This document shows positions 6,413-23,202 of a stretch of DNA of 64,000 nucleotides, piece after piece. The notes beneath the pieces are model-generated. The model did not search any database. It saw nothing but the letters and a program-made list of their open reading frames with translations, and was not told the origin of the DNA. Source of the DNA: Lactobacillales bacterium. Lineage in GTDB: Bacteria; Bacillota_I; Bacilli_A; RF39; UBA660. Position 1 is the first letter of the stretch; each line of letters begins with the position of its first letter. The stretch is from assembly GCA_015059545.1 (NCBI GenBank), contig SVAG01000003.1:1-64000 (forward strand), written 5' to 3'. Position numbers and translations under genes: made by a program.

Positions 6413-7487
6413 AGTATCATTTCCTATGATTGGTAATTATAGTATACCAGCTTGTTATTTACTTAAACATACATTAGACGCTGAAGTTATAATGCCACCT
6501 GCTATTACAAGAAATACGATAGAAATGGGTACAATTAATAGTCCAGAATTTGTGTGTACACCATTTAAATATACATTAGGTACCTATATAGAAGTTTTAA
6601 ATAAAGGTGCTAATATTATATTTCAATTTGGTGGAGGATGTAGATATGGATACTATTTTGAATTACAAGAAAAAATATTAAAAGATTTAGGTTATAAATT
6701 TAAATATGTTAATTTAGTAAGTAAAGGAGTTACAGAACCAAAAAAGATTTATAAAACATTAAAAGAAATAAATCCTAAATTAAAATTAGATAGACTTTTA
6801 TATCATACATTCATAACTTCTAAAATGATTAAATATATGGATAAATGTGATGATTATATAAGACAAAATATAGGCTTTGAAGAAGAATTAGGTAGTATGG
6901 AAAAAATAAATAAAGAAATGTTAAATAAATTTTTAAATATAAAAGGATATTTTAGACTTAGAAAAACGTATAAAAAATATTTAAGAAAATTAAAAAAAGT
7001 AAAAATTAATAAACCATTTAACTCTTTAAAAATAGGAATAATAGGGGAATTATATACAATAATGGAACCCTTTGCTAATTATTATTTAGAGCGTGAATTA
7101 GCTAGTTATAACATAGAAATAAAAAGATTTACTAATGTACATTATTTATTATTTGAAAAAGGTAAAAAAACAAAAAAATATTTAAAATATGCTAAAGAAT
7201 ATATTAAATATAGAATGGGTGCAGATAGTCATGATAATATAGCAAGATGTAAATATCTATGTGAAAATAATTATGATGGAATAATTCATATTAAATCAGC
7301 ATTTTGTACACCAGAGATAAGTGCTATGCCTATAATAAATAAAATATGTAAAGAACATAATGTACCAATAATTTTCTTTTCATTTGATGCTAATACAAGT
7401 GAAGTTGGTATAAAAACACGTTTAGAAGCATTTTATGACATGATAGAAATGAGGAAGAAAAATGAAAAATTGTTATCTGGGGATTGA
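6405..7487 (+). CDS. 2-hydroxyacyl-CoA dehydratase-like (HgdC/D-type) protein
   Basis: A 360-residue product with FPMIGNYSIPACYLLKHTL, SPEFVCTPFKYTLGTYIE and FGGGCRYGYYFELQ, matching the dehydratase D-component fold of the activase-associated proteins. Conserved Cys residues in these segments probably hold a [4Fe-4S] cluster. The start is a TTG at 6405 with ribosome binding site AAGGAG, overlapping the previous gene by 8 bases; the 3' end overlaps the ATPase gene by 26 bases. Tight overlap implies a complex made in fixed proportions. Confidence 0.78.
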   Translation: MNKVSFPMIGNYSIPACYLLKHTLDAEVIMPPAITRNTIEMGTINSPEFVCTPFKYTLGTYIEVLNKGANIIFQFGGGCRYGYYFELQEKILKDLGYKFKYVNLVSKGVTEPKKIYKTLKEINPKLKLDRLLYHTFITSKMIKYMDKCDDYIRQNIGFEEELGSMEKINKEMLNKFLNIKGYFRLRKTYKKYLRKLKKVKINKPFNSLKIGIIGELYTIMEPFANYYLERELASYNIEIKRFTNVHYLLFEKGKKTKKYLKYAKEYIKYRMGADSHDNIARCKYLCENNYDGIIHIKSAFCTPEISAMPIINKICKEHNVPIIFFSFDANTSEVGIKTRLEAFYDMIEMRKKNEKLLSGD

Positions 7488-16015: not shown

Positions 16016-17947
16016 ATGAAAAATAAATCTAAGTTTTTATTATTTTTAAGTTTATTATGGTTACCAGTATTGGTTTCTGCAGGTGATGGAAACAGTGGTC
16101 TTGATATTGTTTCTGCATTAGCAATGGAAGTTTTTGTATCTATACATATGTCTGTTTTTGTTTTAAAACCATTAGCTGATATGTTTTCAAAAGAAAATAG
16201 TAAAAAAACATTTTGGATATTATTTGCAATAAGAGCTGGAATTTTATTATTTTTTGATTTTTTTGTAACCACATTTATTGCAATTATTGATTTTATAGGT
16301 GTTTTTATTGGTGCTGCTTTAATTGTTCCAATTTGTGCTAAGATTACTAAAACAAAAATAAATAGTAGAAGTAATCAAGTTATAAAAACAACTCCTATTA
16401 CTGCTATTGCACAATCACAAGATCAAATTAAAGGTATAGAATTAAAATGTGCTAAATGTAGTGCTGTATTAAATGTTACAGATAAGTTTTGTTCACATTG
16501 TGGTGAAGCATTTGATGGAAGTAATGTAGTGGTTTCTGAAAATGCAAATGAAACAATTAAAATTCCTAATAAGGTTGCAGTATTACCATCACATTTTGAT
16601 AAAATGTATAGTTTATCAGAAGAACAAATGTTAGAAGAATTTATTAATAAAGAATTGACTAAGGCAGGTGTAGATAAATCATCAGGATTAATTCCAAGTG
16701 ATGTTTTAAAAAGAAAAAAAATATTAAATATTATTTTTTCATTTCTTGTTTTTGTATTTATAACATTAATATTTTTCCATTTTCCAATATATACATATAT
16801 AGTAGGAATAGTAATATTATTTATTTTCTTTAAAGTTACAAGAAAATATAATTTAATTAAATATTTGAAAAAGGAAATAAAAGCTAGACCTAGTGAAAAA
16901 ATTTCTAATATTGTGATGAATGTAAAAAATACTTTTGTTGCTGATACTTCAAAAGGTGTTTTTAGAATAAGTTTAATAGCTGCTATTATTTTACCATTGA
17001 TTATTTTTTCATCACCTAGAATTTTATATGAAAAAGTTGATGGAGGTTATGCAGTAAGATATTATGCTTTTGGTTTAACTAATTTTAAAACAGCTACTAT
17101 ACCAGCAACTTATAAAGGTGAAGATGTTATTTCTTTACGTGGTAATACATTCTCTAATATGCCTTTTTTACAAGAAGTAAATTTACCAGATACTATTGTA
17201 GAAATTAGAGGACAAGCATTTAAAAATAATATTAGTTTAACTAAAGTAAATATTCCAAATAAATTAGAATATTTAGGTGGAGGAGCTTTTTATAATTGTA
17301 ATTCCATAACAGATATTGAATTACCAGATACATTAACTTATTTAGGTGGGGAAGCTTTCTATGGTGCATCATCTTTAAAAAACGTTAAATTGTCAAATAA
17401 TTTAATAGAAATTAGAGGAAATACATTTGAAAATTGTTCATCATTAGAGTCTATTAAAATACCAGATTCAGTATTAAGAATTGGTGGTCATGCATTTTAT
17501 GGTAATTCAAATTTAAGTGAAGTTATATTTACAGAAAATAGTCAATTATTTAAAATTGGTTCATCAGCATTTAGAAGATGTGATAGTTTATATGAAATTA
17601 CATTACCTAATGATGTATATATAAATGAGAGAGCATTTAAAGAAAGCCCAACAAATGTTAATTATTTTGAATCAAAAAAACCAACTAAAAATATTATAAC
17701 TATACCTAATGATGGAAGTTATAAAAGTATTAGTACTAGTAAATATGGAAATATAAATTTGAGAATCACTGATGCTAAATTTGAAAATGGTTATTTAAAT
17801 ATGACTTTACATTTAAGTGGAGGAATAAATAAAACACTTGATATTACATGTAATGGTTCACCATATTATATTTATAATGATTTTTATATTATAACTAATA
17901 AATATACATATAAACCATCAACAACAACATTTAATTTTTATTATTAA
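16016..17947 (+). CDS. Zinc-ribbon membrane protein with BspA-type leucine-rich repeats
   Basis: A 643-residue membrane protein. It begins with a signal-like segment (residues 1-22, ending VSAGDG) and two further hydrophobic spans by about residue 110. A zinc ribbon C-x2-C...C-x2-C (CAKCSAVL and CSHCGEAF) lies near residues 140-160. Two more membrane spans follow near 240-280 and one near 325. The extracytoplasmic part has about six LRR_5 (BspA-like) repeats of the type LPDTIVEIRGQAFKNN. The C-terminal 120 residues are beta-rich. It is 12 bases from the radical SAM gene, so they form one operon. Function unknown. Confidence 0.75.
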   Translation: MKNKSKFLLFLSLLWLPVLVSAGDGNSGLDIVSALAMEVFVSIHMSVFVLKPLADMFSKENSKKTFWILFAIRAGILLFFDFFVTTFIAIIDFIGVFIGAALIVPICAKITKTKINSRSNQVIKTTPITAIAQSQDQIKGIELKCAKCSAVLNVTDKFCSHCGEAFDGSNVVVSENANETIKIPNKVAVLPSHFDKMYSLSEEQMLEEFINKELTKAGVDKSSGLIPSDVLKRKKILNIIFSFLVFVFITLIFFHFPIYTYIVGIVILFIFFKVTRKYNLIKYLKKEIKARPSEKISNIVMNVKNTFVADTSKGVFRISLIAAIILPLIIFSSPRILYEKVDGGYAVRYYAFGLTNFKTATIPATYKGEDVISLRGNTFSNMPFLQEVNLPDTIVEIRGQAFKNNISLTKVNIPNKLEYLGGGAFYNCNSITDIELPDTLTYLGGEAFYGASSLKNVKLSNNLIEIRGNTFENCSSLESIKIPDSVLRIGGHAFYGNSNLSEVIFTENSQLFKIGSSAFRRCDSLYEITLPNDVYINERAFKESPTNVNYFESKKPTKNIITIPNDGSYKSISTSKYGNINLRITDAKFENGYLNMTLHLSGGINKTLDITCNGSPYYIYNDFYIITNKYTYKPSTTTFNFYY

Positions 17948-17959
17948 TAGGGGGATTTT

Positions 17960-19699
17960 ATGGAAAAGAAGTATATACATTTATTATATGTGCCAACTAT
18001 GGCTTGTAATATGGGGTGTAAGTATTGTTATTTAGAAGATAATACAAAAGATGAAAAAACTTGTCATAATGCATTAGATACTTTAAAATATGCAATTGAT
18101 AAATTTAAAAGTAGTGATGTGATTCCATTTAATATTTCATTACATGGTGGTGAAGTAACTACTTTAAGTAAAAATGATTTTCATGATATTGTAAAATTTA
18201 TAAGTGATTATTATAATGATAATAAAAAGATAATTACAGAAGCAGGTTTTAGATTAGGAACTCCACATATTAAAACTAATTTATATGATTTAAATAAACA
18301 CATTGATACTATAAAAGAATTTAATGTATCTATATCAGGAAGTTTAGATTTACCATTATTTTTACATGATGAATATCGTGTTACTAAAGGTAATAAAAAA
18401 ACATTAGATAGAATTTTAGAAAATATAAAATTGTTAGAAGAAATTCCTAATAAGAAAAAAGTATCATCAACTATATTTAAAGAACATTATATTCATTTAG
18501 ATGAAATTATAAAAGATATCAAATATTTACACCAAAACACTTGTCTTGATATGAATGATTTTAATTTTATGATTGGTTTTGATTATAATTCAAATGGAAT
18601 ACTTCATCATATTACAGAAGAAGAACAAGTAAATTTATATAAGAGAATGCATCAAGAATTTGATGGTACTGATTTAGATAGAGGAGTTAATGGACCTTGG
18701 TTTGATGAATTTGGTCCAGATTATTGTCCTAATTGTGATAATTGTGGAGAAAAGTTTTTTCTTCTTGAGAAAAATGGTGATATATATTCTTGTGTTAGAG
18801 GACAAAAAAATCCTGAATATTATTATGGGAATATTTATAAAAATACTGTTGAAGAAATTTTAAATACTGCAAAAAATAAGATATTTCTTAATCATAATAA
18901 ACAAGAACTTAGTGAAGAATGTACAAAATGTGGATATTTATATTTATGTAAAACAGGATGTCCTTTTGTAAAAAATACTTATAATTCAAGTAAAAGTTAT
19001 ACTTGTAAATTACAACAGGAAATGTATAAAGATAGAAATTTATTAAAAGATGAATTTAATGAAGAATTTGTTTATGAGTATGTAAAAAAAATGCGTTTAG
19101 AAGATAAGGAAAAATATCTTCCTAATAAAAAACAAAATGATTATTTAACATTAGAGGAACTTATTGATCAAGATCAAAATCTTAAATATATTTATGATAA
19201 TAATAGTTTTATTTTAAAAATTGATGATAAAGAATATGTTTTATCTTCTCAAATTATCAAAAAAACTAGAGATATAATATATATAACACCTAATAGTAAA
19301 ATAGAAATATGGATGAGAAAACATTTGATTGAAGAAATGTGTGATTATCCTGAAAATAATTCACTTTATATAATGTTATTAACTGGAAATTTAGTAACAT
19401 ATGGTGATGAAAATAGAACTAAACAAAGACATGTTGCAACACATCAAATTTATAAAGGAGTATTAGATAACTGTGAATGCGATGATGAATTTTATATTTA
19501 TGATATTAGTAATATGATTAAACAATATAAAAATGAATATTCTTTAGATAAACCTAATAATATCTTTTTTACTACATCTTCACTTAGAGATTATCATTAC
19601 ATAAAGCAAAAAAATAATGCATATTATCATATTCAAGCAATAAATTTACCATTTCAAAATATAGAATTTTATTATTTAGATAAGGAGTTGAAAAAATGA
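17960..19699 (+). CDS. Radical SAM/SPASM peptide-maturase-like enzyme
   Basis: A 579-residue radical SAM enzyme. The SAM-binding [4Fe-4S] cluster motif is C-x3-C-x2-C at Cys16, Cys20 and Cys23 (ACNMGCKYCYLED). A Cys-rich SPASM-type region at about residues 250-355 (CPNCDNCGEKF, DIYSCVRG, CTKCGYLYLCKTGCPF, YTCKL) should hold auxiliary clusters, as in anaerobic sulfatase maturases and RiPP maturases. About 180 further residues at the C-terminus match nothing I know and could bind the substrate. The gene overlaps the next small gene (ATGA), a typical arrangement of a maturase and its peptide. The substrate is inferred, not shown. Confidence 0.82.
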   Translation: MEKKYIHLLYVPTMACNMGCKYCYLEDNTKDEKTCHNALDTLKYAIDKFKSSDVIPFNISLHGGEVTTLSKNDFHDIVKFISDYYNDNKKIITEAGFRLGTPHIKTNLYDLNKHIDTIKEFNVSISGSLDLPLFLHDEYRVTKGNKKTLDRILENIKLLEEIPNKKKVSSTIFKEHYIHLDEIIKDIKYLHQNTCLDMNDFNFMIGFDYNSNGILHHITEEEQVNLYKRMHQEFDGTDLDRGVNGPWFDEFGPDYCPNCDNCGEKFFLLEKNGDIYSCVRGQKNPEYYYGNIYKNTVEEILNTAKNKIFLNHNKQELSEECTKCGYLYLCKTGCPFVKNTYNSSKSYTCKLQQEMYKDRNLLKDEFNEEFVYEYVKKMRLEDKEKYLPNKKQNDYLTLEELIDQDQNLKYIYDNNSFILKIDDKEYVLSSQIIKKTRDIIYITPNSKIEIWMRKHLIEEMCDYPENNSLYIMLLTGNLVTYGDENRTKQRHVATHQIYKGVLDNCECDDEFYIYDISNMIKQYKNEYSLDKPNNIFFTTSSLRDYHYIKQKNNAYYHIQAINLPFQNIEFYYLDKELKK

Positions 19700-20067
19700 A
19701 TAAGGAACCAGAAACTTATGAAGAATTAATAAGATATAAGCGATGTGTTGATTTAACAGCATGCTATGATTTAACAGAAGAAGAATTAAATAAAATATAT
19801 AGTTATTTATCAGAACATCCTAGAGCTGTTATCGTTGGTAATGAAAATAGTTTAACACTTAAGGTAAATTATAAACCTGAAATACAACCACAAATTATAA
19901 ATGCAAAATGTATAAATAGTGGTATTGATGGTATAAAACTAACTAACGAGTCATTTACAATAATTCCTCATTATGTTCCATCTAGTGGTGGTGGATATAG
20001 TGGTGGCTCATCTTCTAATAATAACAATAATAATAACAATAATAATAATAACAATAATAATAGATAG
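19696..20067 (+). CDS. Small protein with Gly/Ser and poly-Asn tail, candidate substrate of the radical SAM enzyme
   Basis: A 123-residue product that I do not recognise. Residues 1-95 look folded, with three Cys (CVDLTACYD and NAKC). Then comes a short Gly/Ser/Tyr segment (PSSGGGYSGGSSS), 15 consecutive Asn and a final Arg. The Asn run is coded by 45 bases of AAT/AAC (20017-20061), a repeat prone to length change. No signal peptide is present. Its start overlaps the radical SAM stop, so the two are co-translated. The tail could be a modified core, a flexible linker or simply a slippage product. Confidence 0.7.
   Translation: MNKEPETYEELIRYKRCVDLTACYDLTEEELNKIYSYLSEHPRAVIVGNENSLTLKVNYKPEIQPQIINAKCINSGIDGIKLTNESFTIIPHYVPSSGGGYSGGSSSNNNNNNNNNNNNNNNR
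20017..20061 (+). repeat. (AAT/AAC)15 trinucleotide tract
   Basis: Fifteen Asn codons in a row, mostly AAT with AAC at positions 3, 7 and 12. The interruptions make it less slippage-prone than a pure repeat, and suggest that the Asn run itself may be kept by selection. Confidence 0.9.
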
Positions 20068-20075
20068 GAGAAAAT

Positions 20076-21092
20076 ATGTCTTTAATATCAGATAAATTTC
20101 ATGAGAAAAAATTAGAAGAATTAGGAATAAATATAAAAACAAAGTATTTTGTTGGAAATAAGATATATGAGAGAAATACTGATGATTCAGTAAATGATGA
20201 TGTAGTATCTGGTATAATGTGTGAAAAAGATTACTACATGGGTAAAAAATTAGTACATAAGGAAAATCAATTTGATTCTAGAATCGAATATACATTTATA
20301 TCAAAAGATATGGAAGATACAATGCATAAATGTATTAATTGTGGTATGGAATCTAAATTAGAAGATTTTGTTGATGGGTGTCCTTATTGTAAAACAAAAT
20401 ATAATATTGATTATACAGATAAGGATTTAGGCAGTAAATATCATTATGATAGAGTATTAAAAAATAATTCGTATAGAATAATAACAGGTATTGTTGATTT
20501 AATTATAAGTATTATATTAAGTTTTATCTTTATTAAAATTACTTCTAGAACATTTAATATAGTTGATATATATAAAGTATTTATATATGGTTTAATTTTA
20601 TCGATGATATTATATTATTTTTTCTATATATTAGATGCTTATATAATATTAGGACCTATAAAAAAATATAAAGATAAACAAAATCAAAAACAAATTGCTT
20701 TTTGGGATAGAACTAAAATAGATAAAAAAACATTTTTTAATAATTTAATCTATGAGATAAGAAAAAACTATTATTTAAAAAAAGAAATTATTGATTTTGA
20801 TGTACTTGATTATATAGAATTTAATGATTTTATAAAAGATAATATACAATATATTAAGGTAATAGCAGAAGTAAGAATAGTTTATTATAATAGAGGAAAA
20901 ATAAAATCAAAGATTAAAAAAGAAGAATATTTATTAAGAAAGAATACCGATGAAAAATTAATTTTAGATGAAGGAACAAATGTTATTAAATGTTATAGTT
21001 GTGGTTCTTCTATTGATGTAACTGAAGAGGCTTGTTCATATTGTCATAGAAAAATTAATTATTTTCAAGAATGGATTTTAGAAGAAGAATAA
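20076..21092 (+). CDS. Zinc-ribbon membrane protein, Tim44-like C-terminal region
   Basis: A 338-residue protein with an N-terminal cytoplasmic domain containing a zinc ribbon (CINCG...CPYC, near residues 88-110), two membrane spans at about 140-195, a soluble domain that resembles Tim44-like folds by eye (DVLDYIEFNDFIKDNIQYIKVIAEVRIVYYN), and a second zinc ribbon at the C-terminus (CYSCG...CSYC). It follows the poly-Asn gene by 8 bases with AGGAG. Two different zinc-ribbon membrane proteins bracket the radical SAM pair. A role in handling the modified peptide is an inference. Confidence 0.65.
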   Translation: MSLISDKFHEKKLEELGINIKTKYFVGNKIYERNTDDSVNDDVVSGIMCEKDYYMGKKLVHKENQFDSRIEYTFISKDMEDTMHKCINCGMESKLEDFVDGCPYCKTKYNIDYTDKDLGSKYHYDRVLKNNSYRIITGIVDLIISIILSFIFIKITSRTFNIVDIYKVFIYGLILSMILYYFFYILDAYIILGPIKKYKDKQNQKQIAFWDRTKIDKKTFFNNLIYEIRKNYYLKKEIIDFDVLDYIEFNDFIKDNIQYIKVIAEVRIVYYNRGKIKSKIKKEEYLLRKNTDEKLILDEGTNVIKCYSCGSSIDVTEEACSYCHRKINYFQEWILEEE

Positions 21093-21168: not shown

Positions 21169-21212
21169 GTTTTATAATTGTATTTAGTTCATATAATTAA
21201 GGGGAAATGTTT

Positions 21213-21479
21213 ATGGAATTAGGAAGCACAATGTTTATATCACATTTACCAAAATTAGATTTACATGGTTATGATAGAGATTCTGCAAGATTAGCAATCA
21301 ATGATTTTGTAAATGAGAATATTAAATTAAAAAAAAGAGAATTTATAATTGTTCATGGAATAGGTAGTGGAATTTTAAAAAAGACTACCCATGAAACACT
21401 GAAACGAAATAAAAACGTTACTGAATATGCTATATGTTATAATAATATTGGTAGTACGATTGTTCGTGTCTCAATTTGA
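21213..21479 (+). CDS. Stand-alone Smr domain protein
   Basis: An 88-residue protein consisting of one Smr (small MutS-related) domain, with LDLHG and HGIGSGILKK motifs and the terminal GSTIVRV strand. In MutS2 this domain is a DNA or RNA endonuclease. The length equals a single domain, so it is not a MutS2 fragment by truncation of a visible gene. I chose the second ATG at 21213 because the GGGG ribosome binding site is too close to the first at 21207. It ends with TGA. Confidence 0.82.
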   Translation: MELGSTMFISHLPKLDLHGYDRDSARLAINDFVNENIKLKKREFIIVHGIGSGILKKTTHETLKRNKNVTEYAICYNNIGSTIVRVSI

Positions 21480-21651: not shown

Positions 21652-23202
21652 ATGTATACCGAAACAAGAAATAATTTTTCAATAAGAAGTGTGATTTTAC
21701 AATTCTTATTCGTAGCTTTATTTATATTTATCTTAATTTGGTTATTTCCAATGAAAAGTGATATGAAAAAAGCTATAGCATCAATTGAATCAACAGATAA
21801 TAATGGTTTATCCATTCTATATGATCGTATATTTAATGAAAATTTATATACGATGAAAGAAGCAGCTAAAGATTATTTTACATTAGAAAGATTACCACAA
21901 AAAGTTGGTGATTCAACTAAAATAACTTTAAGACAAATGCTTGATAAAAAAATCATTTTACCATTTGTAGATAAAAATGGTAAACAATGTGATTTAGATG
22001 CTTCATATGTATTAGTTACAAAATATGAAACTGAGTATCTAATGAAAGTTAACTTAAAATGTGGTAAAGAAGAAAACTATTTATTAGTTAATATGGGATG
22101 TTATGATTATTGTTCACAAACAATTTGTGAAAAGAAAACAACATCTACTAAAAAAGTTGTAACAACAACTAAAAAGAAAACAACAACTGTAGCTGCAAAA
22201 AAATATTATTGTAAAGTAGTAAATGGAAAATATTATGATAATAAAGGTAAAGTAGTTACAAAAACAGCTTATCAAAAAGCTTGTGTTAAAAAGACTGAAA
22301 CTAAAAAATATTATTGTAAAATTGTAAATGGAAAATATTATGATAATAAAGGTAATATAGTTTCAAAAGAAGCTTATATTAAAGCTTGTACTAAACCAGA
22401 AGTAGTAGAAAAAACATATTATTGTGAAATCGTAAATGGAAAATATTACGATGCAACAGGTAAAATAGTTAGTAAAGAAGCTTATGAAGATTCATGTATA
22501 GAAAAAGAACCAGAATATCAATATTTATATGAATATAAAAAAGTTACTGAAGGAACTGTTAAATATTCAGATTGGTCAGAATGGTCAACAACTGCTGTAA
22601 AACCAACAAGTACAAAAGAAGTTCAAACAAAACAAGTTCAAGTTAAAAAATTAATTGGATATAATATTAAAAAAGTAAACGATTTAACTAAACCTATTTT
22701 CTCAACTGAAAAAGTATTAGTTGGATCAAAAACAGTAACAGCTTGTGAAAAATATAAAGTAACAACAGAAATTACTGGATATGAAGAAAAATATATTGGA
22801 ACAGTAAAACTTACATCAGCTCCAACATCTACAACAACATTAAGATATGAAGCTGTTGGTACATATAATTGGTATTGTGATAATGATTGTACATCAGGAA
22901 CAGTATACTTATATAAAGTATATCAAAGAACTCCAATTACAACTAAATCTTATAGTTGTGCAAGTTATAAATCATTTACAACTTCTTATGAAGCAACTAG
23001 AACAATTTTAACAGGATATGAAAAGAAAGAAGAAAAAACACCAGTTTATGATTATTTTACAAGAACATATTATAGATATAGAACAAAAACAAAAACACCT
23101 GGAACTACAGATTTAAAATGGAGTACATATAATGATACTAAATTATTAAATGCTGGATATCATTATACTGGAAACGTTAAAATTGAAATGATTACTAAAT
23201 AG
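21652..23202 (+). CDS. Membrane-anchored surface protein with YYC repeats
   Basis: A 516-residue protein with an uncleaved N-terminal signal anchor (about residues 12-35, RSVILQFLFVALFIFILIWLF). After a 130-residue domain with paired Cys and a Thr/Lys linker come three 33-36 residue repeats that start (K/T)YYC and contain VNGKYYD and a final Cys. A later WSEWS motif resembles thrombospondin type-1 modules, and the remaining part is Thr/Tyr-rich beta sequence with scattered Cys. It is probably a cell-surface protein. It shares an operon with 23221. The family is not recognised. Confidence 0.7.
   Translation: MYTETRNNFSIRSVILQFLFVALFIFILIWLFPMKSDMKKAIASIESTDNNGLSILYDRIFNENLYTMKEAAKDYFTLERLPQKVGDSTKITLRQMLDKKIILPFVDKNGKQCDLDASYVLVTKYETEYLMKVNLKCGKEENYLLVNMGCYDYCSQTICEKKTTSTKKVVTTTKKKTTTVAAKKYYCKVVNGKYYDNKGKVVTKTAYQKACVKKTETKKYYCKIVNGKYYDNKGNIVSKEAYIKACTKPEVVEKTYYCEIVNGKYYDATGKIVSKEAYEDSCIEKEPEYQYLYEYKKVTEGTVKYSDWSEWSTTAVKPTSTKEVQTKQVQVKKLIGYNIKKVNDLTKPIFSTEKVLVGSKTVTACEKYKVTTEITGYEEKYIGTVKLTSAPTSTTTLRYEAVGTYNWYCDNDCTSGTVYLYKVYQRTPITTKSYSCASYKSFTTSYEATRTILTGYEKKEEKTPVYDYFTRTYYRYRTKTKTPGTTDLKWSTYNDTKLLNAGYHYTGNVKIEMITK
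22201..22509 (+). repeat. Three in-frame tandem repeats of 105-108 bases
   Basis: Copies start at 22201, 22306 and 22414. Each encodes YYC, VNGKYYD and a closing Cys about 27 residues after the first, so each repeat may form one disulfide-closed module. Confidence 0.85.

Follow-up and report, generated by a model that had tools for sequence, protein, structure and literature searches.

The window, a 64,000-nucleotide stretch of DNA, encodes a radical SAM enzyme that is probably the dedicated maturase of the protein encoded directly behind it, acting by radical chemistry on the C-terminal Ser/Gly-Asn tail of this carrier and most likely on its successive asparagines. The conserved gene pair, the universal tail, the co-divergence of the two partners and the link between the presence or absence of the enzyme and the tips of phage tail fibres are evident from the sequences, and from them we infer that the tail is modified, at which residue and for what purpose. 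It is an even call whether these enzymes form a family that puts an undescribed modification on the C-terminal (Ser/Gly)-oligo-Asn tips of display proteins, namely receptor-binding phage fibres and a gut-bacterial carrier whose partner is an extracellular LRR protein.

A radical SAM/SPASM enzyme outside the curated maturase families

The enzyme (579 aa; 17960-19699, on the forward strand like every window feature with coordinates given for the cassette) had been recognized as a radical SAM/SPASM protein in the sequence-only reading, and profile searches bear this out, with a TIGR04085 (SPASM) score of 48.5 bits against a cut-off of 27 and Pfam scores of 29.5 against 21.5 for SPASM and 32.5 against 29.5 for Radical_SAM. 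Its CX3CX2C motif (C16-x3-C20-x2-C23; 18005-18028), which binds the SAM-coordinating [4Fe-4S] cluster, is conserved without exception in 68 homologues as well as in those from phages. The SPASM region (18725-19006) contributes eight further cysteines (C256, C262, C278 and C334; C321, C324, C330 and C349) that are all invariant across cell and phage homologues and match the arrangement of the two auxiliary clusters of anSME; their assignment as cluster ligands is taken over from anSMEcpe and is presumed to hold here. C259 is dispensable, being substituted in two homologues (L114 and L087). An AlphaFold2 model built from the 68 homologues (mean pLDDT 91) has anSME as its best PDB match (Z 26.6, rmsd 3.8 over 329 residues), and the epimerase EpeE is a weaker match (Z 14.5, rmsd 5.6 over 268 residues). 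Against the curated maturase models PapB, DynA, DarE, GrrM, FxsB and XyeB the enzyme scores below every cut-off, and by these profile comparisons it belongs to the radical SAM/SPASM superfamily without falling into any curated maturase family tested.

Searches of Pfam and NCBIfam for an RRE gave zero matches; the N-terminus of the enzyme begins at the radical SAM core, and its C-terminal domain is a predicted beta-sandwich. The phrog_1802 profile spans the window enzyme almost fully, and most genomes match it in the radical SAM/SPASM part alone, which makes it too broad for counts. A role in a defence system was considered and set aside: only a weak, partial match to a viperin model was seen, and it covers residues 13-84 of the radical SAM core.

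The C-terminal domain (residues 393-579; 19136-19696), which the earlier reading had left unassigned and put forward as a possible binder of the precursor, stays unassigned after domain and fold searches. Neither Pfam nor NCBIfam places a domain over the C-terminal ~187 residues, and comparison of the domain model (AlphaFold2 on the domain alone, pLDDT 95) with the PDB by Foldseek and VIA-align gave only weak beta-sandwich matches, none of them confident. The best was 6oe6 (Z 6.1, rmsd 3.4, 102 residues), followed by RhoGDI-like folds (Z up to 6.0) and pro-TGF-beta (E 0.018, low probability), and at this level of similarity no fold is claimed. About 30 residues of the domain are invariant, including polar residues in the patterns YGDE..R.K..H and NN...TT...R..HY.K...NA.YH....NLPF. 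The domain is also present in the phage enzymes, and in a sample of 344 genomes it occurs in no protein other than this enzyme.

A small protein with a maintained asparagine tail

The enzyme ORF shares 4 nt (ATGA) with the ORF of the putative carrier or precursor (123 aa; 19696-20067), and both the overlap and the PSSGGGYSGGSSS-N15-R ending reported beforehand are confirmed. Its leader-like N-terminal part (19696-19974), for which a helix followed by strands is expected, carries the motif ExxTYEELIRxKRC... and, in an alignment of 70 homologues, conserves T7 (94%), Y8 (87%), Y35 (90%), H92 (71%) and Y93 (87%). A Gly/Ser/Tyr linker, PSSGGGYSGGSSS (19978-20016), leads into the proposed modification site, a C-terminal tail (20017-20064) of exactly 15 Asn in mixed AAT and AAC codons (20017-20061) and a final Arg. 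Across the 70 small proteins the leader has a mean pairwise identity of 30% against 63% for the enzyme, with a TYxE-type motif kept, and the most conserved columns are S106 (99%), G104 (93%) and the Asn positions. The earlier view took Gly, Ser and Asn as a single core; the data pick out the C-terminal Asn run together with the Ser/Gly that directly precedes it.

Homologue tails take the form Ser/Gly-Asn(n), usually with 10-17 Asn; uninterrupted runs of at least 9 average 13.7, and the last residue is R, H, G, A, S or none. Their asparagines are encoded by AAT and AAC in a ratio of 508 to 368, the longest single-codon run has a median of 3 in about 14, and the AAC share climbs with genome GC (r 0.66), which indicates that the protein sequence, not a DNA repeat, is maintained. 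Such a run exceeds chance: seven consecutive AAY codons were expected 0.00 times from 100 dinucleotide shuffles of the window, a run of eight occurs at a single site in the 1.19-Mb genome, namely the small-protein gene, and the sole such Asn run in the complete GAM79 genome is that of this cassette. One Bacteroidales genome has additional poly-Asn sites, in ORFs with lipoprotein-like N-termini and with no enzyme nearby. Weak matches to the small protein in two related genomes (G011 and G017, E ~0.005) proved to be unrelated ORFs. In two contigs of one bin with identical enzymes, the Asn run is out of frame after SSS in one (L046, 6776-7093) and in frame to the contig end in the other (L047, 9730-10068), reflecting either a faulty assembly or a frame switch within the repeat.

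Enzyme and leader diverge together, with a Mantel r of 0.79 between their distances compared with a maximum of 0.21 in 999 permutations.

Distribution of the gene pair and its neighbours

Besides the window's own genome, 3 of 147 related genomes carry the enzyme. A scan of the genomes of 84,980 species turned up 94 stretches with genes for relatives; 80 loci were retained, and across these roughly 80 homologous loci enzyme identity ranges from 51 to 84%. The hosts include Bacilli, Clostridia, Lachnospiraceae (among them the complete GAM79 genome), Oscillospiraceae, Bacteroidales and an actinobacterial Slackia bin, most records being metagenome bins, so that an isolated placement such as that in Slackia should be taken as provisional. 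Enzyme homologues lacking the neighbour had been named beforehand as what would refute the pairing; a small protein with an Asn tail in fact lies directly 3' of the enzyme in every locus where the contig continues. Clustering of neighbours in 81 loci recovered the enzyme in 78, the small protein in 76, an upstream LRR membrane protein in 69 and a downstream zinc-ribbon membrane protein in 47, the next most frequent neighbour being present in 7. Where the small protein went uncounted, the contig ends there, is read with code 25, or carries a divergent member that direct translation revealed. No recurrent peptidase, exporter or immunity gene was found among the neighbours in the 81 loci. Taken together, the sequence evidence supports a pair that behaves as maturase and substrate: the maturase-precursor part of the original RiPP reading is upheld by near-universal co-occurrence, genes that overlap or nearly do so, and co-divergence, while a cassette in which no peptidase or transporter recurs does not support a cleaved leader and an exported peptide.

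The LRR membrane protein encoded 5' of the enzyme (643 aa; 16016-17947; LRR_5 E=3e-56) starts with hydrophobic segments, followed by a zinc ribbon (CxxC..CxxC), two more transmembrane segments predicted from hydropathy, and BspA-type LRR_5 repeats that are predicted to be extracellular. The downstream protein (338 aa; 20076-21092), a frequent fourth member of the cassette, has Cys4 motifs flanking two transmembrane segments; double zinc-ribbon matches occur in 36 of 36 homologues, and a TIM44-like identity considered for it was discarded, with Pfam support in none of the 36. In four Bacteroidales loci (L070, L071, L074 and L080) a nucleotidyltransferase gene (PF00483) replaces the LRR gene upstream. 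Further downstream, the window encodes a stand-alone Smr domain protein (90 aa; 21207-21479; PF01713 E=2.7e-14) and a 516-aa protein (21652-23202) with an N-terminal hydrophobic segment, repeated KYYCKxVNGKYYDxxGxxVxKxAY units and a weak KOW match.

Two loci, L031 (CAMVNA010000010) and L032 (CAMOEC010000020), use TGA for Gly at all 14 TGA codons in conserved enzyme columns, and the ORFs around the enzyme require translation table 25, which assigns these contigs to the SR1/Gracilibacteria type. Read with this code, the LRR homologue lies 5' of the pair, and LRR protein, enzyme and poly-Asn protein are all present. The enzyme of both loci nests inside the Bacilli clade, and the cassette has apparently crossed a genetic-code boundary by transfer.

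Oligo-asparagine tips on Campylobacter phage fibres

By tblastn, Campylobacter phage CAM-P21 and a plasmid record of C. coli were each seen to encode a full-length enzyme homologue (33% identity, 98% cover); the gene lies among the tail genes of CJIE1/Mu-like phages, two genes 3' of the tail-fibre gene. The fibre beside it ends APSGSTNNNNY, and those on other viral contigs end KSGATNNNNY, RLGSSNNNNY, YSTGNNF, TSMGNNF, TSMGNNS, PSSGNNF and YSCNNNNN. Beside the enzyme, Asn tips persist where the fibre bodies are unrelated and differ in length and sequence, and a Ser shortly precedes the Asn in every tip. The leader motifs of the small proteins are not common to the phage fibres.

Related phages were then gathered by their baseplate/tail and fibre proteins, regardless of enzyme presence. 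An oligo-Asn tip was found in 10 of 10 loci with the enzyme and in 0 of 18 without it (complete fibre), a contrast that is inflated by the shared descent of these kindred loci and overstates their independence; counted as distinct tip types, Asn is present in 8 of 8 enzyme-bearing and 0 of 6 enzyme-less types (Fisher p = 3e-4). All 10 enzyme loci also carry a 210/211-aa neighbour, and the 18 enzyme-less loci carry a 164-170-aa fibre-assembly gene instead, DUF4376 where tested. Judged from these sequences, the phage association is independent of the cellular one and implicates the same kind of tail.

In other strains the CJIE1 fibre is the receptor-binding protein, contacting MOMP in the outer membrane through a knob at its C-terminus, with DUF4376 as its chaperone (PMC11464564, PMC7882524). 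Since the C-terminal knob makes this contact, the Asn tip of enzyme-bearing fibres would by analogy sit at or near the receptor-binding end.

Several features of the phage loci merit separate mention. Two phage enzyme genes appear frame-shifted (L126, 7965-9757; L115, 7968-9725), and their fibres still end GNNF or GNNS. On a 97-kb phage contig (L117), a possible 34-aa peptide, MTTVAVAENLSYVVNTTTTYGTCITTNCTNNSNH, is encoded 5' of the enzyme homologue (7284-7388), with an Asn-rich end and a final His as in some cell tails. For the virulent Campylobacter phages CP220 and CPt10, 11-12 radical SAM proteins are reported, encoded in modules that can be exchanged (PMC2853527).

Proposed tail chemistry and alternative explanations

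Two very different carriers share a C-terminal Ser/Gly stretch followed by at least two Asn, which is most simply explained as the target of the enzyme. In the proposed mechanism, the enzyme would recognize a carrier ending in a short Ser/Gly stretch and an Asn run, and SAM-derived radical chemistry would act on the tail, most likely on the asparagines one by one, which are favoured as the target by the length and continuity of the run in cells. The carrier would be the 123-aa protein in the window and the receptor-binding tail fibre in the Campylobacter phages, whose fibre tips would thereby receive the same chemical finish. In cells, the likely role of the LRR and zinc-ribbon membrane proteins is to place, present or exploit the finished tail at the surface.

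The Ser just before the Asn run is equally universal, which makes oxidation of Ser the main rival. Anaerobic sulfatase maturases turn Ser into formylglycine, and the enzyme could likewise oxidize a Ser, or link Tyr, Phe or Trp within the Gly/Ser stretch, with the Asn run serving as a docking handle or spacer. The close relation to anSME in fold and sequence, the near-invariance of Ser106 and the Ser in all phage tips speak for this reading; nevertheless, the anSME Asp277 is replaced in window and phage enzymes alike, the (C/S)-x-(P/A)-x-R motif is absent, the linker aromatics vary or are missing, and a handle would have no need for 10-17 Asn. We consider it unlikely.

Epimerization of the tail to D-Asn, giving a beta-helix-like tip by polytheonamide-type chemistry, has a precedent in the proteusin epimerases, which modify Asn-rich cores iteratively, and a homopolymer would suit an iterative enzyme. 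A full set of ligands at both anSME-type auxiliary clusters nevertheless points to oxidation, and EpeE matches the structural model less well than anSME, leaving this chemistry decidedly unlikely. By analogy with anSME, the maturase favoured here would more probably catalyse a two-electron oxidation, either a cross-link or a dehydrogenation, with a mass change of about -2 Da per event.

A classical secreted RiPP, in which a host protease removes the leader and the free modified poly-Asn peptide acts as an antimicrobial or signal, would be consistent with the overlap of maturase and precursor genes, with the leader-like conservation and with the RiPP products of other SPASM maturases (PMC8326336). 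It is rendered very improbable by the missing peptidase, exporter and immunity genes, by an enzyme constraint well above that usual for antagonistic peptides, and by the phage tail, which remains on a structural fibre. Finally, although triplet repeats can slip, several contigs stop inside the tract and one copy is frame-shifted, a functionless slippage or assembly artefact is rejected as scarcely credible, given a tail of mixed codons that persists in all phyla from 23 to 65% GC, occupies one site per genome in the window's genome (G000) and GAM79, and is tied to enzyme presence in phages.

If the tail-maturation reading is true, peptide maturation would gain a further class of substrate and probably a new reaction as well, and host recognition by phages would acquire a post-translational layer that had not been expected. 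The same reading would also account for the spread of the cassette over distant gut bacteria, one lineage of which uses another genetic code, as a widespread tip-finishing chemistry common to phages, Firmicutes, Bacteroidota and reduced-genome Patescibacteria. The open-licence papers searched yielded neither a homopolymeric Asn substrate of a radical SAM enzyme nor a phage tail fibre modified by one. The system is directly testable, being present in a complete genome (GAM79) and in a described phage (CAM-P21).

Comparison with known systems

The closest known enzyme is anSME (TIGR03942; PDB 4k36-4k39), with which residues 4-361 share the radical SAM and SPASM fold and the same eight auxiliary cysteines. 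The differences are nonetheless pronounced: the enzyme scores 96.2 bits against a TIGR03942 cut-off of 349.45; the catalytic Asp277 (D277 of anSMEcpe, after the third cysteine of auxiliary cluster I) corresponds to Val279 in this enzyme and to His in its phage homologues; there is an extra 187-residue C-terminal domain; and the constant partner is a poly-Asn protein, in which no (C/S)-x-(P/A)-x-R motif was found, rather than a sulfatase with C/S-x-P/A-x-R. The cut-off and the absent Asp277 rule out membership of the anSME family.

As in RiPP systems generally, the putative maturase adjoins a small ribosomal product, its presumed substrate, made up of a leader and a core at the C-terminus; the two are encoded by overlapping or close genes at about 80 loci. 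A leader peptidase or exporter recurs nowhere among the cassette neighbours, although in single genomes a protease encoded elsewhere may serve. The PapB/freyrasin-type ranthipeptide system and DynA/DarE are likewise SPASM peptide maturases adjoining a small-substrate gene, and PapB works repeatedly along its core; by contrast, the substrate tail in the window lacks Cys and Trp, and the precursor family matches none of theirs. Repeated action of a radical SAM enzyme on a residue run would be shared with a poly-cyclopropylglycine RiPP (PMC9062424), which differs in residue, precursor and gene context.

The phage loci are best compared with the CJIE1-type pair of H-fibre and DUF4376, from the same phage group and with the same N-terminal half of the fibre, described in two papers that mention no radical SAM gene (PMC11464564, PMC7882524). 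The enzyme-bearing phages differ in having swapped the DUF4376 gene for a 210/211-aa protein together with a radical SAM enzyme, and in a fibre that ends in oligo-Asn.
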